This document shows positions 5,517 to 24,423 of a stretch of 64,000 nt of DNA, piece by piece; the first letter of the stretch is position 1; each line of letters begins with the position of its first letter. The stretch covers positions 1 to 64,000 of the forward strand of contig NZ_JWHL01000005.1 in the NCBI RefSeq assembly GCF_018132105.1. The letters run 5' to 3'. The notes below the pieces were generated by a model that did no database searches, was not told the DNA's origin, and was given only the letters and a program-made list of their open reading frames with translations. The translations under genes were made by a program, and so were the position numbers. Origin of the DNA: Methanocalculus chunghsingensis (GTDB lineage: Archaea; Halobacteriota; Methanomicrobia; Methanomicrobiales; Methanocorpusculaceae).

Positions 5517-6728
5517 TTATCCCCTCTTCCGCACACCCATCAGAAGGAGCCCCGCAACCCCTGTAGTAAGGATTGCGACAAGGCCTCCTGCAGACTTCTC
5601 AGCCGCAGGCGCCTCGGTCGGGGGGACCTCATTCAGCGGAGCATCGGAGGTCACCGGCGGGGTTGCCGGCCCCTCTGTCACAACCGGGGCAGGATCATCA
5701 GAGTGATAACTCATCATCGCATACTGGCCGCCCCCGGAGATCTCCACAACCAGGGAGGAGCCCTCAACCCGTGATGGAACGATAGTCCATCCACCATCCC
5801 TGTATGCAGCGATGAACGGTGTGCCGGCATCCCCATCCATCACAAACGAGAGGCGGGCAGGGGGCTGGAAGGAGATACCTGTCGGGGAGATGATATATGA
5901 ACCGGATAAAGCGATCCAGTCGGCCGGGATATTAACCGGTTCGGACTGGATGATCCGGATGTCATCCGGGGAGGCCCAGGTCACCGATGAAGCCACAGTC
6001 TGAAGCCATACAATCCCGTCAAGTGAACTGACAGAGACCTGGTCGACAGGGACAGGCGTTGTTGTGCCACCTGAGCTTCCGGAACTACCACCGGTTGGTG
6101 GTGCTGTCGTCGGCGTGGGGGTGACCGTCGGTGTCCCGATGGTAATCTGCTGGTTCATCGCTTCACTCCCATCCACCAGGACGATGATCCGGGCCGATCC
6201 GTCCGAGATACCTTCCAGCCCAAAGGTGATCGATCCTGCATCAGGTCCCTTCTTGGTGCCGGAGAGTTCAAGCATCATATCGACATAATCGGAACCATCA
6301 ACCGGCTTTCCGAACGCCTTGAGGACCTCGATGGTGCCCGACGGGATAGCATCAAGGCTCTGGGTGATCCGCACCTCTCCGGTCTGCGTCCGCTGGGTCA
6401 TCCGCTTGATGGTATCACCATCAGATGCCTCAAGGCCAGCTTCGGTCACCGGAGAAGCAAGGAGAAGGACACGCGGACTTTCCATCCCGAACGGTACACT
6501 TACCTGGTTGGACTGGTAGGTGAATGTTGACGCTCCATCAAGCTCGATGGCAGCCTCCATCCTGAGCGCAAAGATACTGCCATCCTGGAGTCCTGAGATC
6601 CCGATGGTGATCGTATCCCCTTCCTCAATCTGCTCCGGGCTGATCGTGACCGAGACTGCTGAAGCCTGGGCAACAAGAGCGAGAAGGAGAAGGCATACTG
6701 TAAAAACAGTGATTCTATATTGTCTCAT
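5517..6728 (-). CDS. Membrane-anchored surface protein with a domain shared with the 8346-9140 dockerin protein
   Basis: About 403 residues if ATG at 6728 is used, which puts a clean signal peptide (MRQYRITVFTVCLLLLALVAQ) at the N-terminus. The frame stays open to 6794. The first ~190 mature residues (VSVTISPEQIEEGDTITIGI...) form a beta-rich domain clearly homologous to the one encoded at 8346-9140. A Thr/Pro/Ser-Gly linker follows, then a second domain resembling the membrane-proximal domain of the 9231-12392 product, an acidic Pro-rich stalk, and a C-terminal membrane helix ending in the stop-transfer residues RKRG. It is therefore a tethered extracellular protein. No catalytic motif was seen. 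It belongs to the surface locus that extends to 24.3 kb. Confidence 0.8.
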   Translation of the reverse strand: MRQYRITVFTVCLLLLALVAQASAVSVTISPEQIEEGDTITIGISGLQDGSIFALRMEAAIELDGASTFTYQSNQVSVPFGMESPRVLLLASPVTEAGLEASDGDTIKRMTQRTQTGEVRITQSLDAIPSGTIEVLKAFGKPVDGSDYVDMMLELSGTKKGPDAGSITFGLEGISDGSARIIVLVDGSEAMNQQITIGTPTVTPTPTTAPPTGGSSGSSGGTTTPVPVDQVSVSSLDGIVWLQTVASSVTWASPDDIRIIQSEPVNIPADWIALSGSYIISPTGISFQPPARLSFVMDGDAGTPFIAAYRDGGWTIVPSRVEGSSLVVEISGGGQYAMMSYHSDDPAPVVTEGPATPPVTSDAPLNEVPPTEAPAAEKSAGGLVAILTTGVAGLLLMGVRKRG

Positions 6729-6828
6729 ATCATCACGTACCTGAGATTTTGATCGCACGCTATCTAATCTTTCCGGTAGATCTCCTGTATACAAAGAGAG
6801 GCTTCCGTTCTCTCCGGGTTTTTTGGAT

Positions 6829-6840
6829 GGTATGCATACC
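6829..6840. promoter_or_regulatory. Perfect 12-bp palindrome GGTATGCATACC in a divergent promoter region
   Basis: The palindrome lies between the leftward surface-protein gene (start 6728) and the rightward gene at 6876. An AT-rich TATA-like element (AATATATAATA, about 6862-6872) is just before the rightward start. Position and symmetry fit a repressor or activator operator acting on one or both genes. This is inference from symmetry only. Confidence 0.35.
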
Positions 6841-6875
6841 TTAACGATTCATGCCATACAGAATATATAATACGT

Positions 6876-8345
6876 ATGAAGCAGAGGGTCAGGCATTACT
6901 ATCATGGCATCGGAACCATCAGAGAGGAGCGTGGTGCCGAAACACTCGTTTCGTTTGATAACGGGGAGTCTCTCCGGGTATACACCATGACCCTCACTCC
7001 CATCAGGGATGAGAAGACAGAGACTGCCATCTCCCAGCCTCCCGACCAGGACACCCATCCCCACGCTATCCCACCCGAAGAGGCGAAGACAGACACCCTC
7101 CTCTTCACCAGGGATACTGCATACAAAGAAGAGACATCCCCGGCGACTGAAAAGAAAACCTCAGGAAAGAAGGGGAGAACGATCCCCCCTCAGGTACCAG
7201 AGACGAACAGGAATGACACCTATCTCACGATGATCGTGCTGATCATCGGTATCATCTTCATATCCGCGGTGATCATCACCACCACCCCGGAACCACCGGA
7301 GGAGATCCCGATCACCAATAGTAACAGTGCCATCAACCAGAGCCAGCCGGCGGTCTGGGGGATGCTTGAGGACTACTTCGGCAGATCCGTGATCGTCATC
7401 AATGCAACACCAAATCTGCCACCGGAAGCGCCGGATGATACGGCCGACCCTGTGATTGAGTACGACGATGAGCTCTTTATTCAGACGATAACCGCAGGTG
7501 CCGTCCCCCTCACCATCATCAGCATGCATACCATCATCGCCATCGATCAGTCAAACGCACAGATCCTTGCCCAGAACATCGAGAGCCTGCAGACAATCGC
7601 CGGTGAGAACTTCGGAAAGGTCAGTAAAATGAGGGTCTCCAGGGGGCAGATCGAGCGGAAAGAAGACTTCCAGCATGCAATGCTCGAGTTCATCTCTGCC
7701 TCCTCGTATCTGCGGCGTGGACTCCCGGCCTCAGATAGTGAGAGGCGGGAAGCACTGAATTACCTGGCAACAGGAACCGAGCGGCTTGATGCCGCCCTCC
7801 GCGATATCAATCTCGATATCGAGAGCCTTACTGAAAGGGACCTCTATGCGGTTGAATTATCGACACTCAGCGCACCGACAAAACCTGATGATCTCCTCGC
7901 TCTTGGAACACCATTCATCTACAAGGATGCCACAGAGAGTAACGAGATCTCGATCTACCCAAGGTACGCACGCCGGCAGACGACAATCTGGTATGATGAT
8001 GCTGCGGGAACCGGGCACCTCACCGCCGGTGAGGGAAAGACCTTCATGATAATCCTCATTCAGGTGACACACCGAGGAAACCTTGATGGACGGCGGTATA
8101 CCATCCAGACACCACAACCTGCTGCATTCACCCTTCATGGCGGCGGGGAAACATTCACCCCTGTGCAGACGGTCGCACATACGTCGCTTGGGGAAATGTA
8201 CCGGCCATTCACACTAAACAGGAAGGAGAGTCGCCAGAGCTCTATACTCTTCGAGGTGCCATACAGCCTGAGCCCGCTTGATGCTCATCTCTCGATTAAT
8301 CTTGGATCAACCTGGGGAACGCCGGCATGGGATCTGAAAGAATAA
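6876..8345 (+). CDS. Single-pass membrane protein with C-terminal DUF4352-like domain
   Basis: A 489-residue protein. Residues 1-47 form a small beta-rich cytoplasmic domain with a KOW/SH3-like look (HGIGTIREERGAETLVSFDNG). A charged, Pro-rich linker and one membrane helix (about 119-140, MIVLIIGIIFISAVIIT) follow. The large C-terminal part is outside: a helical region (about 210-320) and then an immunoglobulin-like beta domain (IWYDDAAGTGHLTAGEGKTF... to the end) resembling DUF4352. Function is unknown; sensing or anchoring at the envelope is possible. It is the only rightward gene within the surface locus and its stop abuts the end of the convergent dockerin gene at 8346. A TATA-like element sits unusually close to the ATG, so the true start is uncertain. 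Confidence 0.7.
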   Translation: MKQRVRHYYHGIGTIREERGAETLVSFDNGESLRVYTMTLTPIRDEKTETAISQPPDQDTHPHAIPPEEAKTDTLLFTRDTAYKEETSPATEKKTSGKKGRTIPPQVPETNRNDTYLTMIVLIIGIIFISAVIITTTPEPPEEIPITNSNSAINQSQPAVWGMLEDYFGRSVIVINATPNLPPEAPDDTADPVIEYDDELFIQTITAGAVPLTIISMHTIIAIDQSNAQILAQNIESLQTIAGENFGKVSKMRVSRGQIERKEDFQHAMLEFISASSYLRRGLPASDSERREALNYLATGTERLDAALRDINLDIESLTERDLYAVELSTLSAPTKPDDLLALGTPFIYKDATESNEISIYPRYARRQTTIWYDDAAGTGHLTAGEGKTFMIILIQVTHRGNLDGRRYTIQTPQPAAFTLHGGGETFTPVQTVAHTSLGEMYRPFTLNRKESRQSSILFEVPYSLSPLDAHLSINLGSTWGTPAWDLKE

Positions 8346-9140
8346 TCATAGGGAAGATATCTTCCCGACATAATACCAGGCGATCATCGCGGCATCAGCA
8401 GAGTCGACGACAGAATCTCCATTGAAATCTACTCCCAGGTCAGCAGGCTCAAGGCCGACTGCCATATAGGCGACCCGTGAGACATCCCCGATATCAACAC
8501 GTCCATTGCCATTGAAGTCGCCCCGGAGATGCTGCTGGCCAACGGTGATCCGGGTTGATGTCACCTCATCCCCATCAACCGTGATGGACGCATCGATCGT
8601 TCCGGCAGTGATACCAGAGAGGGCGAAGCTGATGGCAGCCTGATCCGGACCTTCCTTGACACCCTGAATCTGAAGCATCAGGGTAAGATGTTCTCCTCCA
8701 TCGGCTGTTATCCCGCTGATGACAAGTTCCTCGATTGATCCTGCCTGGAGTGACTCCATCCGCTGGAGGATGGTCACAACGCCGGTCTGGCTGTTCTGGA
8801 TGATACTCTTTTCAGCACCACCTTCCACGACCACCAGTCCCGCACGGGTCACCGGTTCGGCACGCAGCCGGATCTCAGCACCGGTGAGGGTATAGGGAAT
8901 GGTCATCTCCCTGGCGGAGAGAGCAAATTCCTGGTCCGTGATCGGGATGCCGATGGCGAGCTCTACTGTAAGGGCACTCCCATCTTCGAGATCATCGATC
9001 GCGATGGTGATGGTATCTCCTTCTTCAATATGATCAGGAGAGATGGCAACCGAGACCGCCCCTGCGCAGAGAGGAAGAAGAGCCAGGCAGAATGATATGA
9101 TAAGCAGCGTAATGCGGTTCATACCAAACAGATTCGTCAT
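8346..9140 (-). CDS. Secreted protein with C-terminal type I-like dockerin
   Basis: A 264-residue exported protein. The signal peptide begins at ATG 9140 or, aligning better with its paralogue, ATG 9122 (MNRITLLIISFC). Residues ~30-200 form the beta-rich domain shared with the 5517-6728 product (VSVAISPDHIEEGDTITIAI). The last ~60 residues are a dockerin: two 12-residue calcium loops (DFNGNGRVDIGD and DFNGDSVVDSAD), each followed by a helix (VSRVAYMAVG, AAMIAWYYVG). Dockerins bind cohesin domains, so this protein should attach non-covalently to a cohesin-bearing partner, and several candidates are encoded alongside. There is no transmembrane anchor, unlike its paralogue. No enzymatic motif was seen. 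Confidence 0.85.
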   Translation of the reverse strand: MTNLFGMNRITLLIISFCLALLPLCAGAVSVAISPDHIEEGDTITIAIDDLEDGSALTVELAIGIPITDQEFALSAREMTIPYTLTGAEIRLRAEPVTRAGLVVVEGGAEKSIIQNSQTGVVTILQRMESLQAGSIEELVISGITADGGEHLTLMLQIQGVKEGPDQAAISFALSGITAGTIDASITVDGDEVTSTRITVGQQHLRGDFNGNGRVDIGDVSRVAYMAVGLEPADLGVDFNGDSVVDSADAAMIAWYYVGKISSL

Positions 9141-9217
9141 CCGATCATATGGTAGATGCGGTTTGGAGTCAGAGAAGAACGTCCGAACGTATCAGATGAG
9201 ACGGAAATACCCCCAAT

Positions 9218-9225
9218 AAAAAAAA
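9218..9225 (-). terminator. T8 terminator after the 9231-12392 gene
   Basis: A run of eight A on the plus strand, read as T8 on the coding strand, five bases past the stop of the large anchored surface-protein gene. Confidence 0.6.
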
Positions 9226-9230
9226 GGTTG

Positions 9231-12200
9231 TTAGTTGTTTTTGTTATAGTAGTATGCCCCGCCTGCGATCAGGAGCAGGAGAACGATACCGATGATCACG
9301 TAGGTCCATGGGAACTCGGATGGCTCCGGAGCGACCGGAACATCCGGTGTCGTCGGAACATCCGGTGTGACAACCGGGGTCGGGGTTGGTGTGACGATGA
9401 CAGACGGTGCTTCAGTGTCAGCAAAGAGTGCAAAGATACTGAAGTGGGTGATCGATGCGGTGATCGTCCGTGTTTCCGGATTCACCGTCGTCGGAACATT
9501 CTCCCAGACACCAGCTTCTGCATTATACCATTTCACAACGAGGAAGTCAGGGTTCTGATCTGCCTCGGCCATTGCTGCATTCCATTGCGCCTCGGTGAGC
9601 TCAAACGCAAGCCTGATCGATGGTGAGAATGTTGCGCCTGCAGGTCCAAGGGTAACCGCATGTCCGGCAAATGAGAAGGCTGCACCGGATGGTACTGCCG
9701 GTACATCTCCGGCTGCAAGATCATCGATGGTCACTTCTGAGAGCGGAGCTCCGTTCCTGTCAAGTGCGACGACATTGCGGTTCAGGTAGACTTTTGCAGC
9801 TTTCGAGGAGGAATCGACGATATAGGACTGGAGCAGCTGACCAAGAGAGTTGGTCAGGAGTGACCCTGTCCCGACAGTCTCAACAGGACGTGGAGCACTT
9901 GAGCCGCCACCACCACTTGGACCCGGGGCCGGGGTTGGAGTCGGGGTTGGAGTAACAGTTGTCAGGGTAACCTGCTTCGTTCCATAGGATGTCAGGTACC
10001 CGTTATTCTCCACGATCATGTGAACAGTATAGGTGCCCGTCAGGAGACCGGTGGTGTCAACATCGAGCGTCTTTGAATTTGTGGTTGTTGCTGCATTTCC
10101 GTATCCTTCGGATATCCAGACATTCGCCTGGGAAATGAGCTTCTTAACGCTCTGGTTGCCATCGCCGATGAGATAGACACTATCAAGCGATCCTGTACCG
10201 AGGGTTGTCAGATCGATGGTGACGTTTCCGGTGTAGGTTGAACCCTCACGAATGAGGAGACCCGCAATGTTCTGTGGAACTGCTGCTCCACCCCAGTTGA
10301 CAACGACGGGGTTGCCGATGAGATAGCTGTCAGCAGTTGTGGTAAACTGGGAAGCTTCTTCGGTAATGATGAACGGTGTTGCCGAGATCAATGATATACG
10401 CTCATCCGGACCATCAAGGCACATCGCAACAATTGAATACTCGCCGGGTCCGAGGTCACTGACTTGAAGACCGGACGGAGCGGTGTATCCAGAATGAAGA
10501 TTGACGTAGTTCTCTTTGATCATTGTGGGGAGGTCAGTATAGAAATCAAACGGTGCCTGTGTCTTGATGATAATTGCATCACCGTTATCATCGATTCTGA
10601 AGATAGCATAGCCTTGAGGGCCATACATGACAACCTTGTCCTTGGAGAGCATCGCCTCGATGGTATCCTTGGATGCGGAGGCTGAACCACTGCGAAGAAT
10701 CTCGTCAATGAGCGTGCTGTTTGCCTTTCCGATAAGGATGGCGGCTTTATCGATATTTGGAACCGAGGCAGTGAAGGTCAGGGTCCCTGTCGGATCGATG
10801 TAGTAGGAGACACCCTGCGGAATCGTGTTGGCTGCAATATCATCGTTTGCACGGTTATCGACGACGACACCCGATCCTGCTGTCATCTGCTTCTGCAGAA
10901 CACCAAGGGTCGGGAGATTCATCGTTCCCGCAGCACCACCGATGGTAAATGCGCGTGCCACTGAAGGGGTGAAGTAGTTGTAGACGGCGGTCTTCGTCAG
11001 ATCAAGGCCGGCAAATTCACCAGCTGTTGGTTCATCGATGTATGCGAGGTAGTTGTTGTAGATATGGAATGGTGCGCTCTGGCCGACATTTCCAGCCTCA
11101 TCAACCGCATAGACGACAGCCTGCCTGTTCCCCTGTGTGTTGCCCTGTGCGACACCATAGGCCAGGTTTCCGGACGGGAACGTTGTGCTCGACGCACCGC
11201 CGATCCAGATGCTCTGTGGGTTTGCATCCGTGACAGTGTAGGCAATCGTCAGCGTCTCAAGTGCCTCGGGATAGCCATCGCCATCAGAGTCGGTGATGCC
11301 GTTGATTGTGACAACGGGTGCAATAGTATCTTTTGTGAAGGACTGGGTTCTGCTCACCTCTCCAACACCGAAGAGTGAACTGGTACCATTGACGACGATG
11401 GTATATTGTCCGTCAGCGAGTGCGCCATAGGCAGTATAGTTGAGTTCAATCGAACCTGCATCCGCACTGCTCGGTGTCAGAGTGATCTGCCCGGTTACAT
11501 CGACATTGTTGATGAACATCTTCACTGTCGCGCCGGTGACCTGGACGTAGTCTGCCTTGATGACAGGCTCGGTTGCATTGGTAAATGTACCGTCAAGATT
11601 TGGATTGAAGGTAATACCTGATTCGGCAACGGTAATAGTATGGGTTCTCGTTGCCAGGTTACCTGCCATATCAGAGGCGGCAACCACAACAGTTGATGCA
11701 CCCAGTGGTACATTCGACCGGGTTCCTGTGACGGTATATCCTCCGGCAACAGGTGTGATCGTCAGGTCTGAGTTTGGAATGGCCACTCCACCGACTGAGA
11801 CGGTGATCGTTGCTGGATCAACACCCCCGACATCAGTAATGGTTGCAGTAACAGCAACATCCTGAGGAACGGTTGCACCATCAGCCGGGGTGGTGATGGT
11901 GATCTCCGGAGGAACGTCATCTTTTGTGGTGAATGAACCATCTACTGGAGTGTATGGGCCAACGGTCCCGGGATCACTCAGTGTTGTAATTGATACGGTT
12001 AACGGAGTCGATGATCCATCATCCTTTTCAGCCCGACAATTCAATCCGAAGAGAGAGGTTGTACCTGAAAGACTGTCTGCAGGTGAATTTGCAAATGCTG
12101 ATACAGTGACAGTTCCAGGAACTGCTACATTAGGGAAGATTGACCACCCGGCAGGATTATACGTTGCATTTGCAGATGGAACAGTCATCACTGTTGGATC

Positions 12201-12392
12201 ATATGTGATCACAATAGTGAAGGCATCCAGACTGGCCATATTCTGACCATAGATTCCAACAGATGCTGTTGTATCTTTTTGTACATCAGTAACAGTACCA
12301 GCAGCAATCTCTTGTGCTGCAGCGAGTCCGGTACATGCTGCCAATAACAAAACAGCACAGAGACTCATTATCAATAATCGACTAATAGTCAT
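9231..12392 (-). CDS. Large multidomain membrane-anchored surface protein with N-terminal cohesin-like domain
   Basis: The start is ATG 12392, because GGAGGG lies at ideal distance upstream; a TTG at 12404 is in frame but is part of that site. The 1053-residue product has a signal peptide (1-26), a cohesin-like domain (~28-160: IVITYDPTVMTV, NPAGWSIFPN), an Ig/Big-like domain (~165-252), further beta domains (~255-445), and a 370-residue region (~450-820) that recalls repeat domains of methanogen S-layer-associated proteins. A Pro-Thr linker, a membrane-proximal beta domain (~845-970, also in the 5517-6728 product), a Pro-rich stalk and a C-terminal membrane helix (~1022-1045) ending YYYNKNN complete it. 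It is the best scaffold or S-layer-like candidate in the locus. No enzyme motif was seen. Confidence 0.85.
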   Translation of the reverse strand: MTISRLLIMSLCAVLLLAACTGLAAAQEIAAGTVTDVQKDTTASVGIYGQNMASLDAFTIVITYDPTVMTVPSANATYNPAGWSIFPNVAVPGTVTVSAFANSPADSLSGTTSLFGLNCRAEKDDGSSTPLTVSITTLSDPGTVGPYTPVDGSFTTKDDVPPEITITTPADGATVPQDVAVTATITDVGGVDPATITVSVGGVAIPNSDLTITPVAGGYTVTGTRSNVPLGASTVVVAASDMAGNLATRTHTITVAESGITFNPNLDGTFTNATEPVIKADYVQVTGATVKMFINNVDVTGQITLTPSSADAGSIELNYTAYGALADGQYTIVVNGTSSLFGVGEVSRTQSFTKDTIAPVVTINGITDSDGDGYPEALETLTIAYTVTDANPQSIWIGGASSTTFPSGNLAYGVAQGNTQGNRQAVVYAVDEAGNVGQSAPFHIYNNYLAYIDEPTAGEFAGLDLTKTAVYNYFTPSVARAFTIGGAAGTMNLPTLGVLQKQMTAGSGVVVDNRANDDIAANTIPQGVSYYIDPTGTLTFTASVPNIDKAAILIGKANSTLIDEILRSGSASASKDTIEAMLSKDKVVMYGPQGYAIFRIDDNGDAIIIKTQAPFDFYTDLPTMIKENYVNLHSGYTAPSGLQVSDLGPGEYSIVAMCLDGPDERISLISATPFIITEEASQFTTTADSYLIGNPVVVNWGGAAVPQNIAGLLIREGSTYTGNVTIDLTTLGTGSLDSVYLIGDGNQSVKKLISQANVWISEGYGNAATTTNSKTLDVDTTGLLTGTYTVHMIVENNGYLTSYGTKQVTLTTVTPTPTPTPAPGPSGGGGSSAPRPVETVGTGSLLTNSLGQLLQSYIVDSSSKAAKVYLNRNVVALDRNGAPLSEVTIDDLAAGDVPAVPSGAAFSFAGHAVTLGPAGATFSPSIRLAFELTEAQWNAAMAEADQNPDFLVVKWYNAEAGVWENVPTTVNPETRTITASITHFSIFALFADTEAPSVIVTPTPTPVVTPDVPTTPDVPVAPEPSEFPWTYVIIGIVLLLLIAGGAYYYNKNN

Positions 12393-12415
12393 AAAACCCT
12401 CCAAGTGATATCTTA

Positions 12416-13165
12416 CTATACTCTAACCCTCATAATTAATATTCCGATTACTATTCCAAAGATTGCGGGAACAAATGATAAAGGCGTCTGGGAAACAGGA
12501 ATTTCCGATGTCCCGGTTGTCATAATCTGTTCGTTATTGATCTCGATCACCTCATCGGAGAGATTATTCTGTGAGGCATCTGGTGTTTCCGTTGCCAATT
12601 CTTCTCCTTCAGCCTGTTGAACCGGTGTCGTAGAGGGGGTGGGTAGATAGATAGTTTCAGAAACAGGCAATTCCCAGGCAACACGCTTTTCTACAGGAAT
12701 TGTCGGTTGTGGAACAACAGAATCTTCAGACGGTGATTCATACACCGGGATTGTACTCTCATCTACCAATGGTTCACTCCCGACAAAAGGGATTGGATTT
12801 CTATTAAAATCATCCAATATTTCAATAGAGACCTTCGGGGAGAAACCAGCCTCAGCCTGAATACGCGCAAGTGGAACACGTGTTGACTGAACATGAGGAG
12901 TCATTGCAAATGCCGAGATTCGAACCAGACCAATCTCATTATCATACTTTGAAAAGACCTCAAATGGCTCGACCGAATTCACTTTAAAAATTGGTGTCGA
13001 CAAATCGTATTCAAGCTCAACGGTATAGGCACTGATCACATACGGTTGGCTGGATGAGAATAAAAGAACATAATCTCCATCAACCGGCTCAACGGTGACA
13101 TCTGCAGCGGTTACTGTCATTGTTAGAATAAGAATAAGAAAAAAACCGATCAATACCTTCCTCAT
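12416..13165 (-). CDS. Small membrane-anchored cohesin-like protein
   Basis: 249 residues starting at ATG 13165 with GGAGTGAATT upstream. A signal peptide (1-20) is followed by a single cohesin-like beta domain (~21-130: AYTVELEYDLSTPIFKV, VRISAFAMTP, PLARIQAEAG). A ~95-residue acidic Pro/Thr/Gln stalk and a C-terminal membrane helix (PAIFGIVIGILIMRV) ending RVRV follow. This is the layout expected of a cell-surface receptor for dockerin proteins. It lies directly downstream (18 bases) of the macroglobulin-like dockerin gene, which makes the two a natural binding pair; that is inference. The cohesin assignment rests on fold-like sequence pattern and context, since archaeal cohesins diverge strongly. 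Confidence 0.7.
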   Translation of the reverse strand: MRKVLIGFFLILILTMTVTAADVTVEPVDGDYVLLFSSSQPYVISAYTVELEYDLSTPIFKVNSVEPFEVFSKYDNEIGLVRISAFAMTPHVQSTRVPLARIQAEAGFSPKVSIEILDDFNRNPIPFVGSEPLVDESTIPVYESPSEDSVVPQPTIPVEKRVAWELPVSETIYLPTPSTTPVQQAEGEELATETPDASQNNLSDEVIEINNEQIMTTGTSEIPVSQTPLSFVPAIFGIVIGILIMRVRV

Positions 13166-13175
13166 AATTCACTCC

Positions 13176-13183
13176 AAAAAAAA
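13176..13183 (-). terminator. T8 run after the macroglobulin-like gene
   Basis: Eight A on the plus strand directly beside the stop codon of the 13184-18412 gene. It lies between that stop and the ribosome site of the anchored cohesin-like gene, so it may attenuate rather than fully separate the two. Confidence 0.5.
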
Positions 13184-16100: not shown

Positions 16101-18412
16101 CCGTTCACCTGGCCTGGCTGGTTGGCTGTGTAGTAGGTACCAAGCATAACAGAGTTGCCCTGGACAACCGAGCGGTTATAACCATAGTACTGCTCCCACC
16201 AGCCTTCATTCTGGTTTGTTATCTCCAGATTATAGCTATCAATACGGACCGAGCGGGTTGCTACATTTCCTGCAGGATTATCATCTCCTGCAATCGTTGC
16301 GGTCAGGGTCTGCTGTCCGGCAGTGTCCGGCTGCCATGTGTTGACGGTAAAGTATCTGGACTGGTATGCCCCAAGTGCAATCTCATCCTGCTCCCAGAGA
16401 ACAGCCCCGCCAGTCGTCACATTCGCGGAGACATTGACCGGGGTAGCTTTTGTATTCCAGACCGAGACCGAGAGGGAGACGGTTGAATCAACAGGGCCTG
16501 ATGTCGGTGCCCAGAGGGATACGCGGGCATCAGTCACCCGATCCTGGGTAAAGGTACCACCGGTGATCTCAAGCTCAAGGAAGTTGTTGTTATCTGTTCT
16601 GACAGTGGCAGCAGTGGTCGATCCAAAGTCAGCCGTCCTCCCAGCCTCAGACTGCGCCTGGAACCGGAGTGTTGCCACGGTCGTGTCGGTCGCATAATTG
16701 ACGTTTGTTCCCTCAACAAGCAGGCGGCCATACCCTGGATTGGTCACTGTCACACCTGTGGCAGGAGCCGAGCCGACATACCTGCAGACCGTTGGATCAT
16801 ACGTGACAGGAATGGAGAATGAACGAACCGGCGCTCCTGCAGAGACGTTGGAGAGGACGACAGGGACATCTTTGATCTCGGCACTTGCTCCGGTGACATG
16901 CGGCAGGATTACCGTGACAGGTTTAAATGAAGCAAATTCTGATGTAATCGTCTTGGAAACCTGCCCCTGGTCGGGATAGAGTATCCGCTCAGTGGGCTCT
17001 TCCTGTGCCTGGCCCCGGGAGTTCACCTCGACGGTGTAGGTCTTTGTACCCTTCGTCTTATCGAGCTGAATGGTCTCGCTTGCAGTCCAGTTTTCACCGG
17101 GTGCAAGGGCAGGGACAGAGATGAACTCATTGACCCCATCCCGTGCGACACGGAGGTACGTCGGGACTGCAGACACATCGCCGTCATTGCTGACACCATA
17201 GGTTACCCGGTGGGTTCCAGGGATGACATCGGCATTGATAACAGTCTGGCTCGATGGAAGCCCTTCAATCAGTGTTGTGTCAAGGACAGGAACGAGATCC
17301 GGATAGGTGACCCATGCCTGCATCTCGTGATAGTTGTTATCATATCGAATCTCCTCAAACGCCCGTGGTTCAGGGTTGATCTCGATGGCAATCTTCTTCA
17401 TACCGGTTGAGATATCCACCCCATGCGTAATCTCGAGGACCTGATAGTCAGGACCATCGTCAGCCACCCTTACATGAGTAATAGAAGAAGAAGGATCAAG
17501 TGTGATAGCAGTGTAAATTGTAAAATTACTATTAACCGGGATCGTGTACCCCAATAACTCCCAATTCTCACTCCTATCAACAAAGGTCATTCTGATTTTG
17601 AAATCCTGATTCACAGGTGCCCGGCCGACATTACGAATAACAAAGGTCGGATCCATCATGATGGTGCCGTTCTTGTACTTCTTGATATGATCCGGGGAGA
17701 TGATCTCATGGACCGCAAGATCCGGTAATTCGGGTGGCAGGATCGTCACGACGCCGGAATGCATCTTTTCCCAGTCAAAATCAACCGCGTCGAATCCATG
17801 ACTCCATTCAGCCCAGTTAAAATCAAGCCATGCCTCACCAGACACCCCGGACTCTGCCCTGACTGTGATCAGGACAATATCCTGTGGAGTAGCCCCGATA
17901 TTCAGAGGTGTCTCTGAAGGTATCGTTACGGCAACGCGAAGGAGACTCTCATGATGGTAACCAGGTCCTGTATAATACTCATACTCCTCCCCATAATCTT
18001 CCTCACCAAAGTGGGTAACATTATAGGTCACGAGCGTACCAGAAGGAAGACCGGGAGCCACGACGACATCCTCAATATCCACCATCTCTGATTCAAAGAA
18101 GATGAGAAACCCAACCCCTTCAACTCCGGTCACATTGGCAACCGAAACCGGGATATCCACAGTCTGGCCTGCCGGAACCTCATCAGATCCAATCCGGATT
18201 GTGGCATCCGAATTCTGATCTATCAGAGCCTGCAGACTGGTAGAATCAGTCTGTTTTGGTACATCTGCACCATATTCATCATTCAGCACAAAATAAGGAG
18301 GGTCAGAATACCCCCCCTCTTCAGTATCATTGCCATTTGCCCCGGCATATGCCACTCCGATAAGGCAGCATATGATGACGGCAACAGCAAGAAATCTCTG
18401 CAACTCACCCAT
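13184..18412 (-). CDS. Alpha-2-macroglobulin-like thioester protein with cohesin-like domains and C-terminal dockerin
   Basis: 1742 residues from ATG 18412, which has GTGATT five bases upstream (TTG 18418 is in frame). Order: signal peptide (1-24), cohesin-like domain (~45-225), two CARDB-like domains (~228-480), a second cohesin-like domain (~495-618), another CARDB-like domain (~622-727), a macroglobulin-like beta region (~740-890), a thioester domain with GCPEQ at Cys912-Gln915 and an alpha-toroid to ~1215 (YAESEATAYAILALN, NGRWGNTRATGAVVNTL), receptor-like beta domains, and a dockerin (~1676-1742) with loops DVDGSGTVTILD and DVQDTGMVTILD. Macroglobulins trap proteases or bond covalently to targets through a Cys-Gln thioester. 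The intact CxEQ suggests chemistry is retained. No lipobox was seen, so attachment is probably via the dockerin. Confidence 0.85.
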   Translation of the reverse strand: MGELQRFLAVAVIICCLIGVAYAGANGNDTEEGGYSDPPYFVLNDEYGADVPKQTDSTSLQALIDQNSDATIRIGSDEVPAGQTVDIPVSVANVTGVEGVGFLIFFESEMVDIEDVVVAPGLPSGTLVTYNVTHFGEEDYGEEYEYYTGPGYHHESLLRVAVTIPSETPLNIGATPQDIVLITVRAESGVSGEAWLDFNWAEWSHGFDAVDFDWEKMHSGVVTILPPELPDLAVHEIISPDHIKKYKNGTIMMDPTFVIRNVGRAPVNQDFKIRMTFVDRSENWELLGYTIPVNSNFTIYTAITLDPSSSITHVRVADDGPDYQVLEITHGVDISTGMKKIAIEINPEPRAFEEIRYDNNYHEMQAWVTYPDLVPVLDTTLIEGLPSSQTVINADVIPGTHRVTYGVSNDGDVSAVPTYLRVARDGVNEFISVPALAPGENWTASETIQLDKTKGTKTYTVEVNSRGQAQEEPTERILYPDQGQVSKTITSEFASFKPVTVILPHVTGASAEIKDVPVVLSNVSAGAPVRSFSIPVTYDPTVCRYVGSAPATGVTVTNPGYGRLLVEGTNVNYATDTTVATLRFQAQSEAGRTADFGSTTAATVRTDNNNFLELEITGGTFTQDRVTDARVSLWAPTSGPVDSTVSLSVSVWNTKATPVNVSANVTTGGAVLWEQDEIALGAYQSRYFTVNTWQPDTAGQQTLTATIAGDDNPAGNVATRSVRIDSYNLEITNQNEGWWEQYYGYNRSVVQGNSVMLGTYYTANQPGQVNGRLRMWGPDGTEIDLTQNNPIQMNYWNPAERTFYGYQSTWNSAIWYSIVPRELGTFTYSIELDAKGESDFVNGTLVVREPFVDIKVLRSTALDGTDAAGEINFEIFNRNPSEGREITITASAGAEGRTLQGLEYLIGYPHGCPEQTMSPAFAALRVKQYYAEHDGLTDSLNASVRRTMDQAFDRMKATSTANPQRLDTGRFSTADYGAWAWGTTSAPSLFYTLQPNYVFSELKKDMINDPGYWNVDIFNTTEINLSASTLWLIDQQIETGTHEGGWHSWGYISNRYEWTGFISEKFVGEFEFLTPATQVLVNQSLNRSADYLLTDGKDTPTTKALAFRIFGLHAIKEHYSDDQALVGEIDDKIPELRDALIADRKTDAAGNFYWEDGWYAESEATAYAILALNRSGLSTDDENIAGGLRYLISQYDSNGRWGNTRATGAVVNTLMELQVKTDFTFTANVGVNYGGNVIRAPETLTFDNANVRHSFTLTPQQVDDLYGDAVANRLGTIAITGKSDAGPDAVKMVVAVQSFEKVPLSVARATFGEVARIPEVFIDPIATDFFLDVTIPVADPAGLEIGDDVDVVFTVDNTGPGNINQTVMIIEIPISAGVNFTGADTGENSAYYLSNPSDPVSKVYLSHMVNRTAGRLYVYPGSDDESQPSIVAGEIKNFYVPLRFGESGSQTVEARVYPMYDDEWMAVGDATATIRGFGTLTVSAVDEDGDPVNADFYVNDISVGTGVNTTTIERIEDTYNVAIYGTGVDRWLNTTLRVNTGEVTDYSAQFVTDTGLPHITTVTGAAGDVLVMPPEIEETISETSTNHWNAAVTAKQIFNSTISSSGGIATIAVDVPTINRTLGTALVNDTVTFSYRNVTGWQGPFDVRDYISEGVVLISDLDTGQIDQIILTFEGRPLGDVDGSGTVTILDARDIAWSTVGSKQLSFNDRFYADVQDTGMVTILDARDVAWYTVGERDRYYQ

Positions 18413-18499
18413 AATCAATCACTTCTCGACTGTCATTCTGTATATGCTAATACATTTCCCGAATCTACTTAAATCTTCTCTCATTTTTCGCTGATATGG

Positions 18500-18506
18500 A
18501 AAAAAA
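18500..18506 (-). terminator. T7 terminator after the subtilase gene
   Basis: Seven A on the plus strand, directly adjacent to the stop codon of the 18507-23498 gene and upstream of the promoter region of the macroglobulin-like gene. Confidence 0.55.
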
Positions 18507-21500
18507 TCAGAGGTCATTTATCTTCCCCACATAGAAGTACGCAATCTTAGCCGCATCATTCCCATCAACTGACCCCGAATTATCAAAGTCCGCCTCGGGA
18601 TCTTCGGTTGTCAGTCCGGCAACCATCCAGGCGACCTTAGAGACATCCCCGATATCGATCCGGTCGTTCCTGTTGAAGTCGCCCCGCAGATGGACGGAGA
18701 GATCTCCATCCTCCTGAATGCGGAAGATTTCATACGCAAAGGTATCTGGAGACCATTCAGCGCCGGTGATCTCTATTGGCGCAGCACCAACCTTCTGGCC
18801 AGCCTCAAATCTGATATCGATGATCCCGGTGAGATCGATAAAGTCACGTTCTCTGGTGAGGGTCATCGAGATATCGGCCCTGCCGGTGGTGTTGTCAATA
18901 TCATAGATCAGCTGGTAGAGATCATCCGCAACCGATGCATTCGGAGTGATTTCAACCAGCTCAACGAGCGTCTGATCAAACGTCAGATTGACGCCAAACG
19001 CGATGGCGCCCTGAATCTGTTCGACCGAGATCCCGGTTGTCCTGTTCATACCTGTGGCGATATCAAGGTCACCAACCTGGACACGGCTTGGGACATGGAC
19101 AGTGATATACCCTTCTTTTGTGATCGTATCACTCCCCTGCTCATTTGTAACGGTCAGGGTCACATTGTACTGCCCCGGAGTCCCATAGAGCTTCACCGGG
19201 TGGCGATCAGTTGATGTCGTTCCATCCCCGAAGTTCCACTCCCATGATGTCGGGGTGCCGGTAGATGTATCACTGAACCTGATTGTCAGGGGAGCGGTTC
19301 CGGTGGCCGGCACTCCGACGAAGTTCGCCGTTGGTGCAACCGGCTCAGGACCGACAGACTGGACAGAATACCCAGAGAGTGTCGTAAAGACGTGATCCGG
19401 CGTTCCGCCACCGATCTCCCAGTAGAGATAGCCGTTCTCCGGGATATACATCTTCAGAGTGGCGGCCCCGTCGGCACCGGTTGTTGTGACATCCACACCA
19501 CCATACTCAGAGAAGAGAGAGGGTAATTCCTCGTAATATGCATATGGACCGACACTATCATAGGTCAGATAGACGGGCACACCGGCCCGGCCATCCGTCA
19601 TCCGGACGGTCACATCAACAAGGCCCGCCTGCTCAACAAACAGAGGGGGCGGGTTCTCAACAACGAGCGGGGTTGCTCCGATGAACATCGAATATGACCA
19701 CCAGTTGCCCTGGCTGTAGTTGCCACGATAGAAGTAATCCTTCATATCAAGGGTGATCAGATACGACCCAAACGGCAGGGCAGCTGCAAACTCACCATCC
19801 CCGGTGATAGACTCTGAATGGATAGTTGCAGCCTGCCGGTATCCGTGATCTGAATCCCAGCCCGTTTTCACATCCTGCCGTGAGACCTCAAAGATACCGG
19901 GCATCGGAATCGGATCTCCTGCCTGATCAATGATTGTTACATCCCCCATCAGGATGCCATCATCACCCCCAGGAATGTACTCTCCGGTCATAACAGGCCA
20001 TTCGTACGGCGGATAGACATACGTATACGCATAGGCGTCACCTGAGATGCCAATAACCTGGATACCATTCCCGGACCATTCACCTTCAAACCTGATATCA
20101 ACCGGGAGGGAGGCATACCCATACCCGTCAGCCCCCGTCGTCACAACGGCAGACTGGTCGCTTGTATAGAGATAGACCGTTCCGGCAACAGGCTCGCCGG
20201 TCTCGGGATTCCAGAGCTGGCAGGTGACATTCATCTCGGTTCCCGGCACGATACTCTTCTGATCAGACGAGAATCCGCCAGCCCAGTCACCGCGGATGGA
20301 GATCGCCTGGGACGGTATGGTATCCGGGGCGACTGGATGGTGTGTAAACGGCCAGAGATCGACAATGATGAGCGCAATTGACCCCATCATTTCCGAGTTG
20401 ACCCCACTCTCACCATAGAAATCGCTCCCGGCAATGACGATGCCAAGATATGCACCCTCAGGGACCGGGATATCCGCCTTCCCGATACCGTTCTTCAAGA
20501 GATACGGAACGGTGATGAAATCCATCTGCAGATTCTCGATCTCAGCAAGGAGATCCCGGTACCCGGGTGTCATCTGCTCGACCTCTCCTTCAAGAAGCCG
20601 GTGCATTTCTACTGGATATTCTGCCGAGAGAGACCGGACATCTGCTTCAGAGAGCCATATGATCGGAAGTTCCCGTGTCTCGTCAGGAGCAGGCGTTGCA
20701 TTCAGCGGTGAATACCGCTTCACAAGAACGGGTGTGGTACTCTTCGGGGCAGCACGGGATACAACCGGTTGTATCTCCTCTTTGAACCAGTCATCATCAA
20801 AGAACGTGACCTCTCCTACATAGAGAACCTCTGATGCATCAGCTATCGGAGAGACTTTCATCTCACCATAATAGGAGGATATCGTCGATCCGTCTATCTC
20901 ATGCTCGATCACTCCGTTGACCGGCGTGAGCGTCTCATTCACGAACTCTTCCTGCCAGGTGCCGAAGATAAACCGCAGATCACCTGTATACGGCTCCATC
21001 GTCACCGGATCAACGAAGGTATACTTCACTGGAATGGTCGAGTTCTGGAGGGCTTCATACCGCTTCCAGGGAGTATCTATCAGCAGAAGCTCCTGCGAAT
21101 GGCTATTCCGGGTATATATCCATCCCGAAACGACATTGCCATGATCGTCAGTCACCTGATAATCATACTCATATGCAGTCGGAACAAACGAAACCGTCAC
21201 CATCCCTGAGGCATCCGTCATGACGGTTGTATTCAGAACCTCATCGTCCCCGGCCCGGATAAGGAACTGAACAGGTTCATCCTGAGAAGGAGTGCCGTTC
21301 CAGACGATTGCGGTGATAACATTCTCTTCACCAGGCTTCAGGTACTCATACCCAAATCCGGCATGCAGCCGGGGACCATCATAAACCGGGGGAGCAAGCG
21401 GCTCTGTTGCATTCACAGCAGCCCAGGCACTCACCCTGCCGTAGCCATAGTCGTTGTCGGGGCCTTCTGGCCCGAGATCGACGGCGGTGCTGGTCAGAAT

Positions 21501-23498
21501 TGATCGGATATCCTCAGGCTCCAGATCCGGGTTCACCTGCAGGAGCAGGGCAGCCACACCGGCAACATGCGGGCATGCCATCGAGGTGCCGCTCATGGTG
21601 CGATAGAGCTCCCCATCCCGTGTCGATGCAGAGAGGACCTGTGTTCCCGGTGCAACGACATCCGGCTTGATGATGGTATCCGCACCCCAGCCGACCGGTC
21701 CCCGGCTGCTATATGGAGCGATATAATCCTGCATAGACCCGGTTGCACCGACATGAATCGCTGCCGGAGTTGCAGGGCCACTGACCGTCCGGAGACCAAA
21801 TTCCCCATCGTTTCCGGTGGAGGTGACAAAGGTCACGCCATCGGCGACGATCTGATCGACCGTCTGGGACTGGAGGGATGTTCCATTATCTGTATAATAC
21901 ACAATCCATTCAATGGAAACCGGATACTCCTCTTTCGTCCGGCTCCAGCCATCCTCGGGATCTGCCTCCCACCCGGTATCCCCGGATGCATCATCATAGA
22001 ACCCGATCTCAGGGATCGCCATCCAGTCAATATACCAGCCGGCATTGATAACTGACCCATCAGTCTCATACCGGAGGCGGAGGTCAAAATAGCTCAGCTG
22101 GTACTGGCCATCCTGTTGCCAGAGATACTCTGTGAGATTGGCAGTATAGACACCATCACCAGTACCGGTAAATTCCAGGATGACATCCCATGAAGAGGTC
22201 CCGACATTATAAACCTCGAGATACCCAAAATCCCAGCTACTTTCGATATCGTACCAGGTTTCCATTTCAAAGGTTGCCGAGTCAAGAACCCCGACATAGT
22301 CCGAGTAATCAAACCTCTGATAGAGCACATTATCGAGGTTATCCCCCTTTCCGGAATGCCAGACCCTGTTGCTCGCATTTATTGAAGGATAGGCAGCATT
22401 CAGGGTCCAGTTACCGGCAGGCAGGGCCTCATCACCGATGAATTTCAGCATCACATATCCCGGAGGATTCGGGAAAGAAAGCCAGTCACAATCAACACCG
22501 GAATACACAGTACCATCGGGTCGCATCATCGTCAGCTCGAGATCGGCAAACGGAGCCTCTTCACCCATGAGGAGAATAAACGATGGATCATAGCCGTCTC
22601 CGTCATTGGTTACCTCAAAGGAAATATCAACGCCTTCGGGGCTTTCACAAACCACATACTCGGAGAAGGTATCATACCATCTGCTCCCTCCACTGTACGA
22701 GATCAGATCAGCACCAAGCTCCACAGCCGTTTCAAACCCGGCAATGATCGTCGAGGTTTGTCCAGAACCGTTTGCGTCGAAGACCTTAACACCGATCAGA
22801 TCAGCACCCGGCGCCACTCCGGTGTAGACCCCCCCGGCACCGGTTCCGGCAACCGTCCCGGCACAATGGGTTCCATGGCCAGCATCATCATAGGGTTCAT
22901 CCAGATCATTCACCAGATCGACCCAGCCGATGATCTTCCCTGCAAGGTCCGGGTGCCCGGAATCGATGCCGGTATCAACGACCGCGACCGTCACCCCGGT
23001 CCCATCGATTCCGTTTGACCAGACATCAGGAGCCTCAATCCAGGAGAGACCCCATGCAATATCATCCTCTGCCGGATGCGACGGATCGATCCATTCGACC
23101 TCAGCAGATCCGGGTTTGAAGAACTGCATCTCCCGCTCACCCTTTTCAGGTTTGGTCAGGAGATCCAGTGTCACAATCCGGTCCGGTACGACCCGGGCAA
23201 CATCCCTCCGGGCGGCGACCTGTTTGACCTGATCCTCGGTGAGGGTCGCTGCAATCGCATTGACAGACCAGAGTGGCCGCACCTCACCCACCCCCATACT
23301 TTTAAGGGATGTTACGACATTTCGTTGCGATTCCGCCGCAAACATAGCGAGTTCTGCAGACCCTGCTCCATGAGCGGGCTGCTCTTTCATAACAATAATA
23401 ACCTGCTGCGAATCACCGGAAAACGGTGCTGCAGACCCGGTTCCCACAAAGAGAAGGAGAACCAGTGCAAAAATAATAATGGCAGAACGTGCAGACAT
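18507..23498 (-). CDS. Secreted subtilisin-like protease (S8) with PKD, cohesin-like and dockerin domains
   Basis: 1663 residues from ATG 23498 (a GTG at 23507 is in frame). A signal peptide (1-23) is followed by an I9-type propeptide (~30-110) and an S8 domain with Asp175 (VVDTGIDSGHPDL), His208 (HGTHCAG) and Ser639 (GTSMACPHVAG). The oxyanion Asn is in FVTSTGND. About 280 residues are inserted between His and the oxyanion region, resembling a jelly-roll domain. Downstream are several beta domains, a carboxypeptidase-regulatory-like region, a PKD domain (~1389-1470, WNFGDG), a cohesin-like domain (~1472-1598) and a dockerin (~1600-1663; loops DFNRNDRIDIGD and DFDNSGSVDGND). It should be an active extracellular endopeptidase docked on the cell surface. 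Probable roles are peptide scavenging, processing of surface proteins or defence. Confidence 0.92.
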   Translation of the reverse strand: MSARSAIIIFALVLLLFVGTGSAAPFSGDSQQVIIVMKEQPAHGAGSAELAMFAAESQRNVVTSLKSMGVGEVRPLWSVNAIAATLTEDQVKQVAARRDVARVVPDRIVTLDLLTKPEKGEREMQFFKPGSAEVEWIDPSHPAEDDIAWGLSWIEAPDVWSNGIDGTGVTVAVVDTGIDSGHPDLAGKIIGWVDLVNDLDEPYDDAGHGTHCAGTVAGTGAGGVYTGVAPGADLIGVKVFDANGSGQTSTIIAGFETAVELGADLISYSGGSRWYDTFSEYVVCESPEGVDISFEVTNDGDGYDPSFILLMGEEAPFADLELTMMRPDGTVYSGVDCDWLSFPNPPGYVMLKFIGDEALPAGNWTLNAAYPSINASNRVWHSGKGDNLDNVLYQRFDYSDYVGVLDSATFEMETWYDIESSWDFGYLEVYNVGTSSWDVILEFTGTGDGVYTANLTEYLWQQDGQYQLSYFDLRLRYETDGSVINAGWYIDWMAIPEIGFYDDASGDTGWEADPEDGWSRTKEEYPVSIEWIVYYTDNGTSLQSQTVDQIVADGVTFVTSTGNDGEFGLRTVSGPATPAAIHVGATGSMQDYIAPYSSRGPVGWGADTIIKPDVVAPGTQVLSASTRDGELYRTMSGTSMACPHVAGVAALLLQVNPDLEPEDIRSILTSTAVDLGPEGPDNDYGYGRVSAWAAVNATEPLAPPVYDGPRLHAGFGYEYLKPGEENVITAIVWNGTPSQDEPVQFLIRAGDDEVLNTTVMTDASGMVTVSFVPTAYEYDYQVTDDHGNVVSGWIYTRNSHSQELLLIDTPWKRYEALQNSTIPVKYTFVDPVTMEPYTGDLRFIFGTWQEEFVNETLTPVNGVIEHEIDGSTISSYYGEMKVSPIADASEVLYVGEVTFFDDDWFKEEIQPVVSRAAPKSTTPVLVKRYSPLNATPAPDETRELPIIWLSEADVRSLSAEYPVEMHRLLEGEVEQMTPGYRDLLAEIENLQMDFITVPYLLKNGIGKADIPVPEGAYLGIVIAGSDFYGESGVNSEMMGSIALIIVDLWPFTHHPVAPDTIPSQAISIRGDWAGGFSSDQKSIVPGTEMNVTCQLWNPETGEPVAGTVYLYTSDQSAVVTTGADGYGYASLPVDIRFEGEWSGNGIQVIGISGDAYAYTYVYPPYEWPVMTGEYIPGGDDGILMGDVTIIDQAGDPIPMPGIFEVSRQDVKTGWDSDHGYRQAATIHSESITGDGEFAAALPFGSYLITLDMKDYFYRGNYSQGNWWSYSMFIGATPLVVENPPPLFVEQAGLVDVTVRMTDGRAGVPVYLTYDSVGPYAYYEELPSLFSEYGGVDVTTTGADGAATLKMYIPENGYLYWEIGGGTPDHVFTTLSGYSVQSVGPEPVAPTANFVGVPATGTAPLTIRFSDTSTGTPTSWEWNFGDGTTSTDRHPVKLYGTPGQYNVTLTVTNEQGSDTITKEGYITVHVPSRVQVGDLDIATGMNRTTGISVEQIQGAIAFGVNLTFDQTLVELVEITPNASVADDLYQLIYDIDNTTGRADISMTLTRERDFIDLTGIIDIRFEAGQKVGAAPIEITGAEWSPDTFAYEIFRIQEDGDLSVHLRGDFNRNDRIDIGDVSKVAWMVAGLTTEDPEADFDNSGSVDGNDAAKIAYFYVGKINDL

Positions 23499-23575
23499 AG
23501 AGACCACGTCAGGGCTATATCCACACTCATTGGTTATAATAACTTTTATGAGATCTTTAATATATTATATTATTT

Positions 23576-24343
23576 TTATTTATATTTCATAATTTTTCGA
23601 ATGAATGGAATCATAAACAGCCCGGAAATACAGGCAACCGAGAGAGGAGCAGGGGTCGGTTCGGGAACCGCAGGTTCCTCACCCGGTACGACAGGGTCGG
23701 AGGTCAGATCCGGAATGGGTGTAACCGTAGGTGCAGCAGTAGACTCCGGCAATGCGGGAAGTTCCACCGGATCATCTGAGGTAAAGAAATCACCGGGATC
23801 ATAGGTGGTTACAGGAGCCGGACTCGCTACTCCCGAACCTCCCCCTGAGGACGATGGCTGGGATGTGGGTGATGGTGTCGCACCAGGTGCGATGGTACTC
23901 GCAATCTCCCCTCCATTGACATCATCAAACTCAATGGAAGCAAATGCAGGAAAGTCGCTCCAGCGGGCATTGGAGAGGCTCAGAGGAGTCGTTCCCGCGG
24001 CTACTGATGAAAATGAAACCAGAACAACTCCGTCCGGAGACGCAATTGTCACAGGATCGGGAAAGATGACAAGAACTCGTGCAGTACCCGGAGTATTCAT
24101 ATTGGTCGTCATTGAGACGCCCTGGTAGTCATCTGCCTTGCTGATGGATGCGATCTGCACAATATCGGGATCATAGGCGAGATCAAACTGAATGCTCGTT
24201 GCCGATGCAATGCCGGAGACCTTTACCTCCAGGAGAGATTCATCGGCACGACCTGAATCAATCTCAATGACTGATGCCGCATGAACCGTGCCGACCATGA
24301 CGAGCAACAGACAGACAAGTACGCCAAATGAACGAATATTCAT
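23576..24343 (-). CDS. Membrane-anchored cohesin-like surface protein
   Basis: 255 residues from ATG 24343. The open frame extends to 24514, but only the later start gives a signal peptide (MNIRSFGVLVCLLLVMVG), and GTGATT lies upstream. The mature part has one cohesin-like domain (~25-140: IQFDLAYDPDIVQIASI, VLVIFPDPVTI, VLVSFSSVAAG, then LSNARWSDF). A ~90-residue linker rich in Ser, Pro, Thr and Gly and a C-terminal membrane helix (ACISGLFMIPFI) with basic end RKIMKYK follow. It lies 77 bases upstream of the subtilase in the same direction and is divergent from a DUF1616 gene. The layout matches the anchored receptor encoded at 12416-13165, so it is a candidate docking site for the neighbouring protease. 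Confidence 0.75.
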   Translation of the reverse strand: MNIRSFGVLVCLLLVMVGTVHAASVIEIDSGRADESLLEVKVSGIASATSIQFDLAYDPDIVQIASISKADDYQGVSMTTNMNTPGTARVLVIFPDPVTIASPDGVVLVSFSSVAAGTTPLSLSNARWSDFPAFASIEFDDVNGGEIASTIAPGATPSPTSQPSSSGGGSGVASPAPVTTYDPGDFFTSDDPVELPALPESTAAPTVTPIPDLTSDPVVPGEEPAVPEPTPAPLSVACISGLFMIPFIRKIMKYK

Positions 24344-24423
24344 GTAATAATCACGATCTTTTATCCACAAATAGCTAACGGTACAATTCAATCCCGGATA
24401 TCGGCATCTTTTTTTCCGATGTG

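Follow-up and report, generated by a model that had tools for sequence, protein, structure and literature searches.

Gene organization of the locus

The region between positions 5517 and 24343 of contig NZ_JWHL01000005.1 from the archaeon Methanocalculus chunghsingensis was analysed computationally within a window of 64,000 nucleotides, which is contig 8 of a 2.13 Mb genome that is 99.5% complete. Members of Methanocalculus are hydrogenotrophic methanogens. As a first-pass annotation of the sequence had indicated, seven of the eight genes in this region are leftward genes encoding surface proteins, the gene at 6876-8345 being the sole rightward one. The leftward genes, named here by their lower coordinate, include those for membrane-anchored cohesins and for cargo proteins that end in dockerins, among them a subtilase and a protein with a thioester domain (TED). 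The features on which the analysis is based are as follows, all on the minus strand.

23576-24343: membrane-anchored cohesin with signal peptide, cohesin (about 23894-24286), stalk and C-terminal transmembrane helix; candidate socket for class-A dockerins (PF00963, 30.5 bits)
18507-23507: subtilase of family S8 (catalytic region about 21408-23060; PF00082, 2.4e-54) with Ig-like region, PKD domain, cohesin and class-A dockerin
18768-19082: internal cohesin of the subtilase (PF00963, 24.7 bits in the genome search and 20.7 bits in the window scan)
18510-18701: class-A dockerin of the subtilase (alignment A8; E=1.8e-36 with the family profile built from 18507 and its relatives)
13184-18418: TED protein with cohesin 1, CARDB-like domain, cohesin 2, macroglobulin (MG)-like region, TED, extra domains and a private dockerin (PF00963 over two stretches; PF07678, 8.2e-7)
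17774-18211: cohesin 1 of the TED protein (partial PF00963 match at 18065-18202, 19.9 bits)
16583-16918: cohesin 2 of the TED protein (PF00963, 38.2 bits)
15668-15679: thioester residues CPEQ (C914, E916 and Q917 invariant in 13 orthologs)
13187-13387: two-fold symmetric private dockerin of the TED protein, halves VTILDARDIAWSTVG and VTILDARDVAWYTVG (symmetry and codon tests)
12416-13165: membrane-anchored cohesin (domain about 12746-13108), proposed socket for the TED-protein dockerin (AlphaFold2 and Foldseek; co-variation)
9231-12404: large membrane-anchored protein with an N-terminal cohesin (11931-12299), second proposed socket (PF00963, 22 bits; orthologs above the cut-off)
8346-9140: novel all-beta domain and class-A dockerin (8349-8534; PF00404, 25.4 bits)

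According to these coordinates, the TED gene and 12416 are separated by 18 bases and 12416 and 9231 by 11 bases, and therefore the three genes are likely to be co-transcribed.

Cohesins and membrane anchors

Anchored cohesins had been proposed for 23576, 12416 and 9231, and all three proposals were borne out, by different lines of evidence. The 23576 cohesin scored above the Pfam cut-off, and its family profile matched the cohesin 4uyp (E=0.019). The 9231 cohesin scored under the cut-off, and its orthologs in two other genomes (G003 and G062) passed it. Neither a Pfam match nor a profile-to-PDB match was found for 12416, for which the cohesin call comes from the predicted fold only. When the AlphaFold model of 12416 (pLDDT 78.5, built on a two-sequence alignment) was compared with PDB folds by Foldseek, the top 21 matches were all cohesins (E 1e-3 to 1e-2, TM about 0.4-0.57), which supports its assignment as a cohesin with moderate confidence. 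All three cohesins are carried on stalks, each with a C-terminal membrane helix; signal peptides and membrane anchors were recognised by eye in the sequences and in alignments A1 and A2, and relatives of the anchored proteins match the PGF-CTERM Pfam family.

The N-terminal domain shared by 5517 and 8346 was also considered as a cohesin and was rejected for now, as it had no Pfam or PDB profile match and gave a confident all-beta fold model without a cohesin match.

The earlier annotation had not placed cohesins on the cargo, where our Pfam analysis identified two in the TED protein and one in the subtilase. A PF00963 search of the whole genome (E<=1) returned five matches, all inside the 5517-24343 cluster. 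Because of this result, and because the gene order recurs in other families, the clustering is considered to be beyond chance.

Dockerins and their carriers

The dockerins assigned earlier to 8346, 13184 and 18507 were all recovered, that of 8346 above the Pfam cut-off and those of 13184 and 18507 under it (16.2 and 10.5 bits, respectively), with both calcium loops visible by eye and with support from family profiles. The family profile of the 13184 dockerin matched solved dockerins, such as 4uyq_B at 2.3e-9; of its two loops the second, DVQDTG, is weak as a calcium site. The 18507 dockerin is a member of the class-A family.

Dockerins in the window genome were located by profile search. The class-A profile identified ten copies genome-wide, whereas Pfam cohesin matches were confined to the cluster; among the carriers inspected to date are NHL/PKD proteins, a DUF4430 protein and a papain-like C1 protease. 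The tenth copy lies at G000:C1:44064-44249, on a 585-residue frame. Across the 199 genomes of the order Methanomicrobiales, strong class-A dockerins were found in 15, the 23576 family in 13 and both in 10 (p=3.7e-11, a value not corrected for relatedness and obtained with thresholds chosen afterwards). Within Methanocalculus, the window genome (G000), G006 and G082 have both, and G012, G018, G054 and G086 have neither.

No glycoside hydrolase was found among the dockerin proteins scanned with Pfam, the remaining carriers having been read by eye, and no protein carried more than two cohesins. A cellulosome was therefore rejected, there being neither dockerin-borne glycoside hydrolases nor a multi-cohesin scaffoldin.

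The thioester protein and the subtilase

The cargo had been described as a subtilase and a thioester macroglobulin. The subtilase was confirmed, its Asp-His-Ser motif set being intact (VAVVDTGI, HGTHC, GTSMACP), and so was the TED: the thioester motif CxEQ of 13184 is intact and is kept in all TEDs checked from Methanomicrobiales, G327, G404 and haloarchaea. In a profile search against PDB, 13184 matched CD109 (1.3e-10) and also complement C3, with the CD109 alignment beginning at residue 800. The macroglobulin part of the description did not stand, because no bait, A2M or MG Pfam family was found at E<=1 and neither a bait region nor MG1-6 was detectable. Full alpha-2-macroglobulin identity was rejected on domain content, and 13184 appears better named a TED protein. 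Since bait region and cage are undetectable, a classical snap-trap inhibitor is not supported. Of the docked surface complex proposed earlier, the non-cellulosomal assembly is well supported by domain content, synteny and co-variation, and classical inhibition by trapping is not. The TED protein comes in two variants, one long and bearing cohesins at its N-terminal end, the other shorter, at about 1270 residues.

Symmetry of the TED-protein dockerin

The two halves of the TED-protein dockerin were compared over their recognition-region residues in 18 non-redundant Methanomicrobiales TED proteins. The halves were 0.70 identical within a protein, compared with 0.27-0.30 for the same half between orthologs. 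In the loop, the three residues that precede the last aspartate, among them the classical dockerin specificity positions, were 0.80 identical within a protein and 0.10-0.13 identical between orthologs. The observed symmetry was not reached in any of 100,000 permutations, and a protein's own second half was the best match in 17 of the 18. The class-A and subtilase dockerins displayed the opposite pattern, with halves 12-34% alike and orthologs or paralogs 67-81% alike.

In a codon test on 19 proteins (224 residues common to both halves), identical codons were used at a frequency of 0.44, versus 0.43 expected from the codon usage of the genes. This agreement is at the random level, and the symmetry therefore appears to be maintained by selection and is not due to recent DNA copying; gene conversion was rejected as its source, except in G327. 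Both halves thus seem to be held to one partner by selection while the partner changes between species, and, by analogy, this symmetry is what a dockerin with a dual binding mode predicts.

In the G327 TED protein (L045:7843-14931), the halves look identical over about 29 residues, and 17 tested residues are identical, codons included. Either the duplication happened very recently or the assembly is at fault here.

Co-variation of the TED-protein dockerin with two cohesins

Between two loci from the same genus (L026 and L028), agreement is 86-97% for 23576, 8346, DUF1616 and both docking modules of the subtilase (cohesin and dockerin), but drops to 45% for the dockerin of the TED protein, 28% for the cohesin of 12416 and 24% for that of 9231. 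These last three L028 modules are nearest to those of a locus from another family, L029 (57, 40 and 46%, respectively). This joint switch of affinity points to 12416 and 9231 as the likely sockets of the TED-protein dockerin. In a mirror-tree analysis of 17 genomes with TED distances removed, partial correlations of the dockerin with the two cohesins were 0.49 and 0.55. The distances of 23576 and of TED cohesin 1 correlated negatively with those of the dockerin in the small type-I set, and these two cohesins are disfavoured as its socket by the residual correlation. At least two separate docking specificities seem to be present.

The TED and 9231 genes of L026 and L028 are strongly mosaic, stretches of 80-96% identity being interspersed with stretches of 20-50% within one gene, a pattern that suggests recombination between lineages.

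Conservation and distribution

The order 23576, subtilase, TED protein, 12416, 9231 and 8346/5517, often beside a DUF1616 gene, recurs in several Methanomicrobiales families. The TED protein was found in 25 of the 199 genomes and the core of 9231 in 26, with 24 genomes common to both. Outside the order, the set is present in three sampled genomes of the phylum. One is G327, probably an Archaeoglobus, in which the order of S8, TED, anchored protein and 9231 homolog is as in the methanogens. Another, G404, was taken as a haloarchaeon from its acidic, G+C-rich sequence character. In this genome, a single 2668-residue open reading frame fuses subtilase and TED with both motif sets intact, contains a weak MG4 match, and is followed by a dockerin gene and then by a cohesin gene with a membrane anchor.

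In the haloarchaeal class, TED was found in 7 of 194 genomes. The order TED, dockerin gene and cohesin-like anchor was kept in all eight loci examined, and a subtilase was present in five of them. Together with 10 of 13 Methanomicrobiales loci and the single G327 locus, this places a subtilase adjacent or fused to TED in 16 of 22 loci. The recurrence in three archaeal groups suggests that this surface machine is ancient and perhaps serves defence.

Proposed mechanism and alternative explanations

The reading that we prefer, with fair though incomplete confidence, is a surface-tethered, protease-coupled thioester effector, in which cohesin-dockerin plugs hold the TED protein and the subtilase side by side. 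The tether is its well-supported part, as far as sequence comparison can support it; binding and defence we infer. In the first step, it is quite probable that the TED-protein dockerin would plug, in one or the other of two orientations, into the cohesins of the anchored proteins 12416 and 9231. In the second, the evidence leans slightly towards the subtilase, 8346 and about eight proteins encoded elsewhere plugging their class-A dockerins into 23576, with the TED-protein and subtilase cohesins as possible further sockets; as cargo proteins bear cohesins too, short chains could be formed. The third step is more tentative: proteolysis, through the subtilase or else through an attacking protease, might expose the thioester, which might then bond covalently to the attacker or to another nearby target on the cell surface, with a role in defence or in the capture of hostile proteases or cells. 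Trigger and target in this step were deduced from the chemistry of the family, the proximity of the subtilase in 16 of 22 loci and the one fusion.

Several observations weigh against this reading. The lack of a detectable bait, A2M or MG family in 13184 bears on the proposed trigger. In 6 of 22 loci no S8 lies close to TED, which means that the subtilase is not obligatory, and the haloarchaeal dockerins are not symmetric. In addition, the dockerin and the 12416 and 9231 cohesins are contiguous over about 1.6 kb, so that transfer or recombination of one block could give co-variation without binding; the symmetry of the dockerin is independent of this problem.

A wider and rather doubtful version of the tethered effector is an ancient archaeal complement-like defence, in which a protease-triggered TED would sit on species-specific, exchangeable cohesin-dockerin sockets and would be activated by the subtilase, which is part of the same polypeptide in one haloarchaeon and would be docked next to it in methanogens.

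Among the alternatives, covalent adhesion fares best, though we consider it unlikely: the tethered TED would attach the cell covalently to a surface or to a partner cell, and would be matured or shed by the subtilase. A TED without detectable bait or cage, carried on long stalks at the membrane, would suit this function, as would the Ig, PKD and CARDB domains, which are typical of adhesins, but the repeated adjacency and the one fusion with an intact subtilase better fit a proteolytic trigger. A structural assembly of the envelope, with surface-layer proteins attached by cohesin-dockerin pairs, processed by the subtilase and cross-linked by the thioester, is improbable. The large conserved surface protein 9231, the DUF1616 neighbour and the many non-enzymatic class-A cargo proteins are consistent with it, whereas the presence of the TED protein in only 25 of 199 genomes is patchy, and four of the eight sampled Methanocalculus have neither cohesins nor class-A dockerins. 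Least probable is nutrient proteolysis, in which docked proteases (S8 here, papain-like C1 elsewhere) would digest protein at the cell surface while TED shields the cell from its own enzymes. A C1 protease encoded in this genome does bear a class-A dockerin, but the class-A cargo seen consists mostly of NHL, PKD or DUF4430 proteins, and peptides from outside are of little use to a hydrogenotrophic methanogen.

Relation to known systems

Makarova et al. 2021 (PMC8416519) described archaeal TED proteins as homologs of alpha-2-macroglobulin and TEPs and proposed a role for them in immunity. The TED with CxEQ, the occurrence in Halobacteria and Methanomicrobia and the proximity to surface proteins and endoproteases are common to those proteins and to the system described here. 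The text of that paper does not mention cohesin, dockerin or subtilisin; our analysis adds the docking sockets, the symmetric dockerin and the fusion of S8 with TED. Archaeal cohesin-dockerin pairs outside cellulosomes, in Archaeoglobus and in anaerobic methanotrophic archaea (ANME), some of them reported to bind, were described by Chadwick et al. 2022 (PMC9012536); common ANME cargo consists of ABC-transporter binding proteins, and no TED or subtilase module is described in the section considered. Group-4 dockerins of Ruminococcus flavefaciens are symmetric and dual-mode, one of them on a peptidase, and bind a cell-surface anchoring cohesin, and serpins bearing dockerins are known (PMC5301203); unlike the present system, these group-4 dockerins are bacterial, act within a cellulosome and lack a thioester protein. 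Complement C3, CD109 and insect TEP1 share a homologous thioester domain with 13184. They have MG cages, and C3 also a regulatory proteolytic cascade, whereas 13184 has cohesins and a dockerin instead; the counterpart of an activating protease would be the adjacent or fused S8.

No report combining a macroglobulin and a dockerin was found in the literature outside subscription papers, preprints and supplementary tables, so priority is not certain. Both parts were known separately, and the combination of docking, TED and subtilase appears, with the same reservation, to be new. It joins two puzzles, namely the purpose of non-cellulosomal archaeal cohesin-dockerin pairs and the way in which archaeal complement-like TEDs are tethered and triggered. 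The orthologs offer a naturally occurring set of plug-and-socket pairs that are predicted to be orthogonal, and the TED-protein dockerin provides a clear case of two dockerin halves evolving together by selection; both are testable in vitro.

Neighbouring genes and a second docking cluster

Two further features adjoin the genes listed above.

5517-6794, minus strand: membrane-anchored protein with the same novel all-beta domain as 8346 (6120-6659; alignment A3; no Pfam family)
24421-25410, plus strand: divergent DUF1616 membrane-protein gene, a conserved neighbour also present in four haloarchaeal loci (PF07760, 2.1e-104)

In those haloarchaeal loci (L047, L050, L052 and L053) the DUF1616 gene lies between the subtilase and TED genes, whereas in methanogens it lies beside the cluster. 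The product of the rightward gene at 6876-8345 combines an SH3-like N-terminus with a membrane helix and an outer domain, and a relative of the outer domain adjoins the cluster in L031 and L037. A protein resembling the product of this gene, as judged by eye, is encoded near a class-A dockerin gene at L002:5908-6975.

A second docking cluster was observed in the same genome at L001:4259-16967 (G000 contig 49). It encodes four NHL/PKD-type proteins that end in a different class of dockerin (GFNDV motif), an anchored cohesin-like protein at 6546-7337 that is not recognised by Pfam, and two class-A dockerin proteins.
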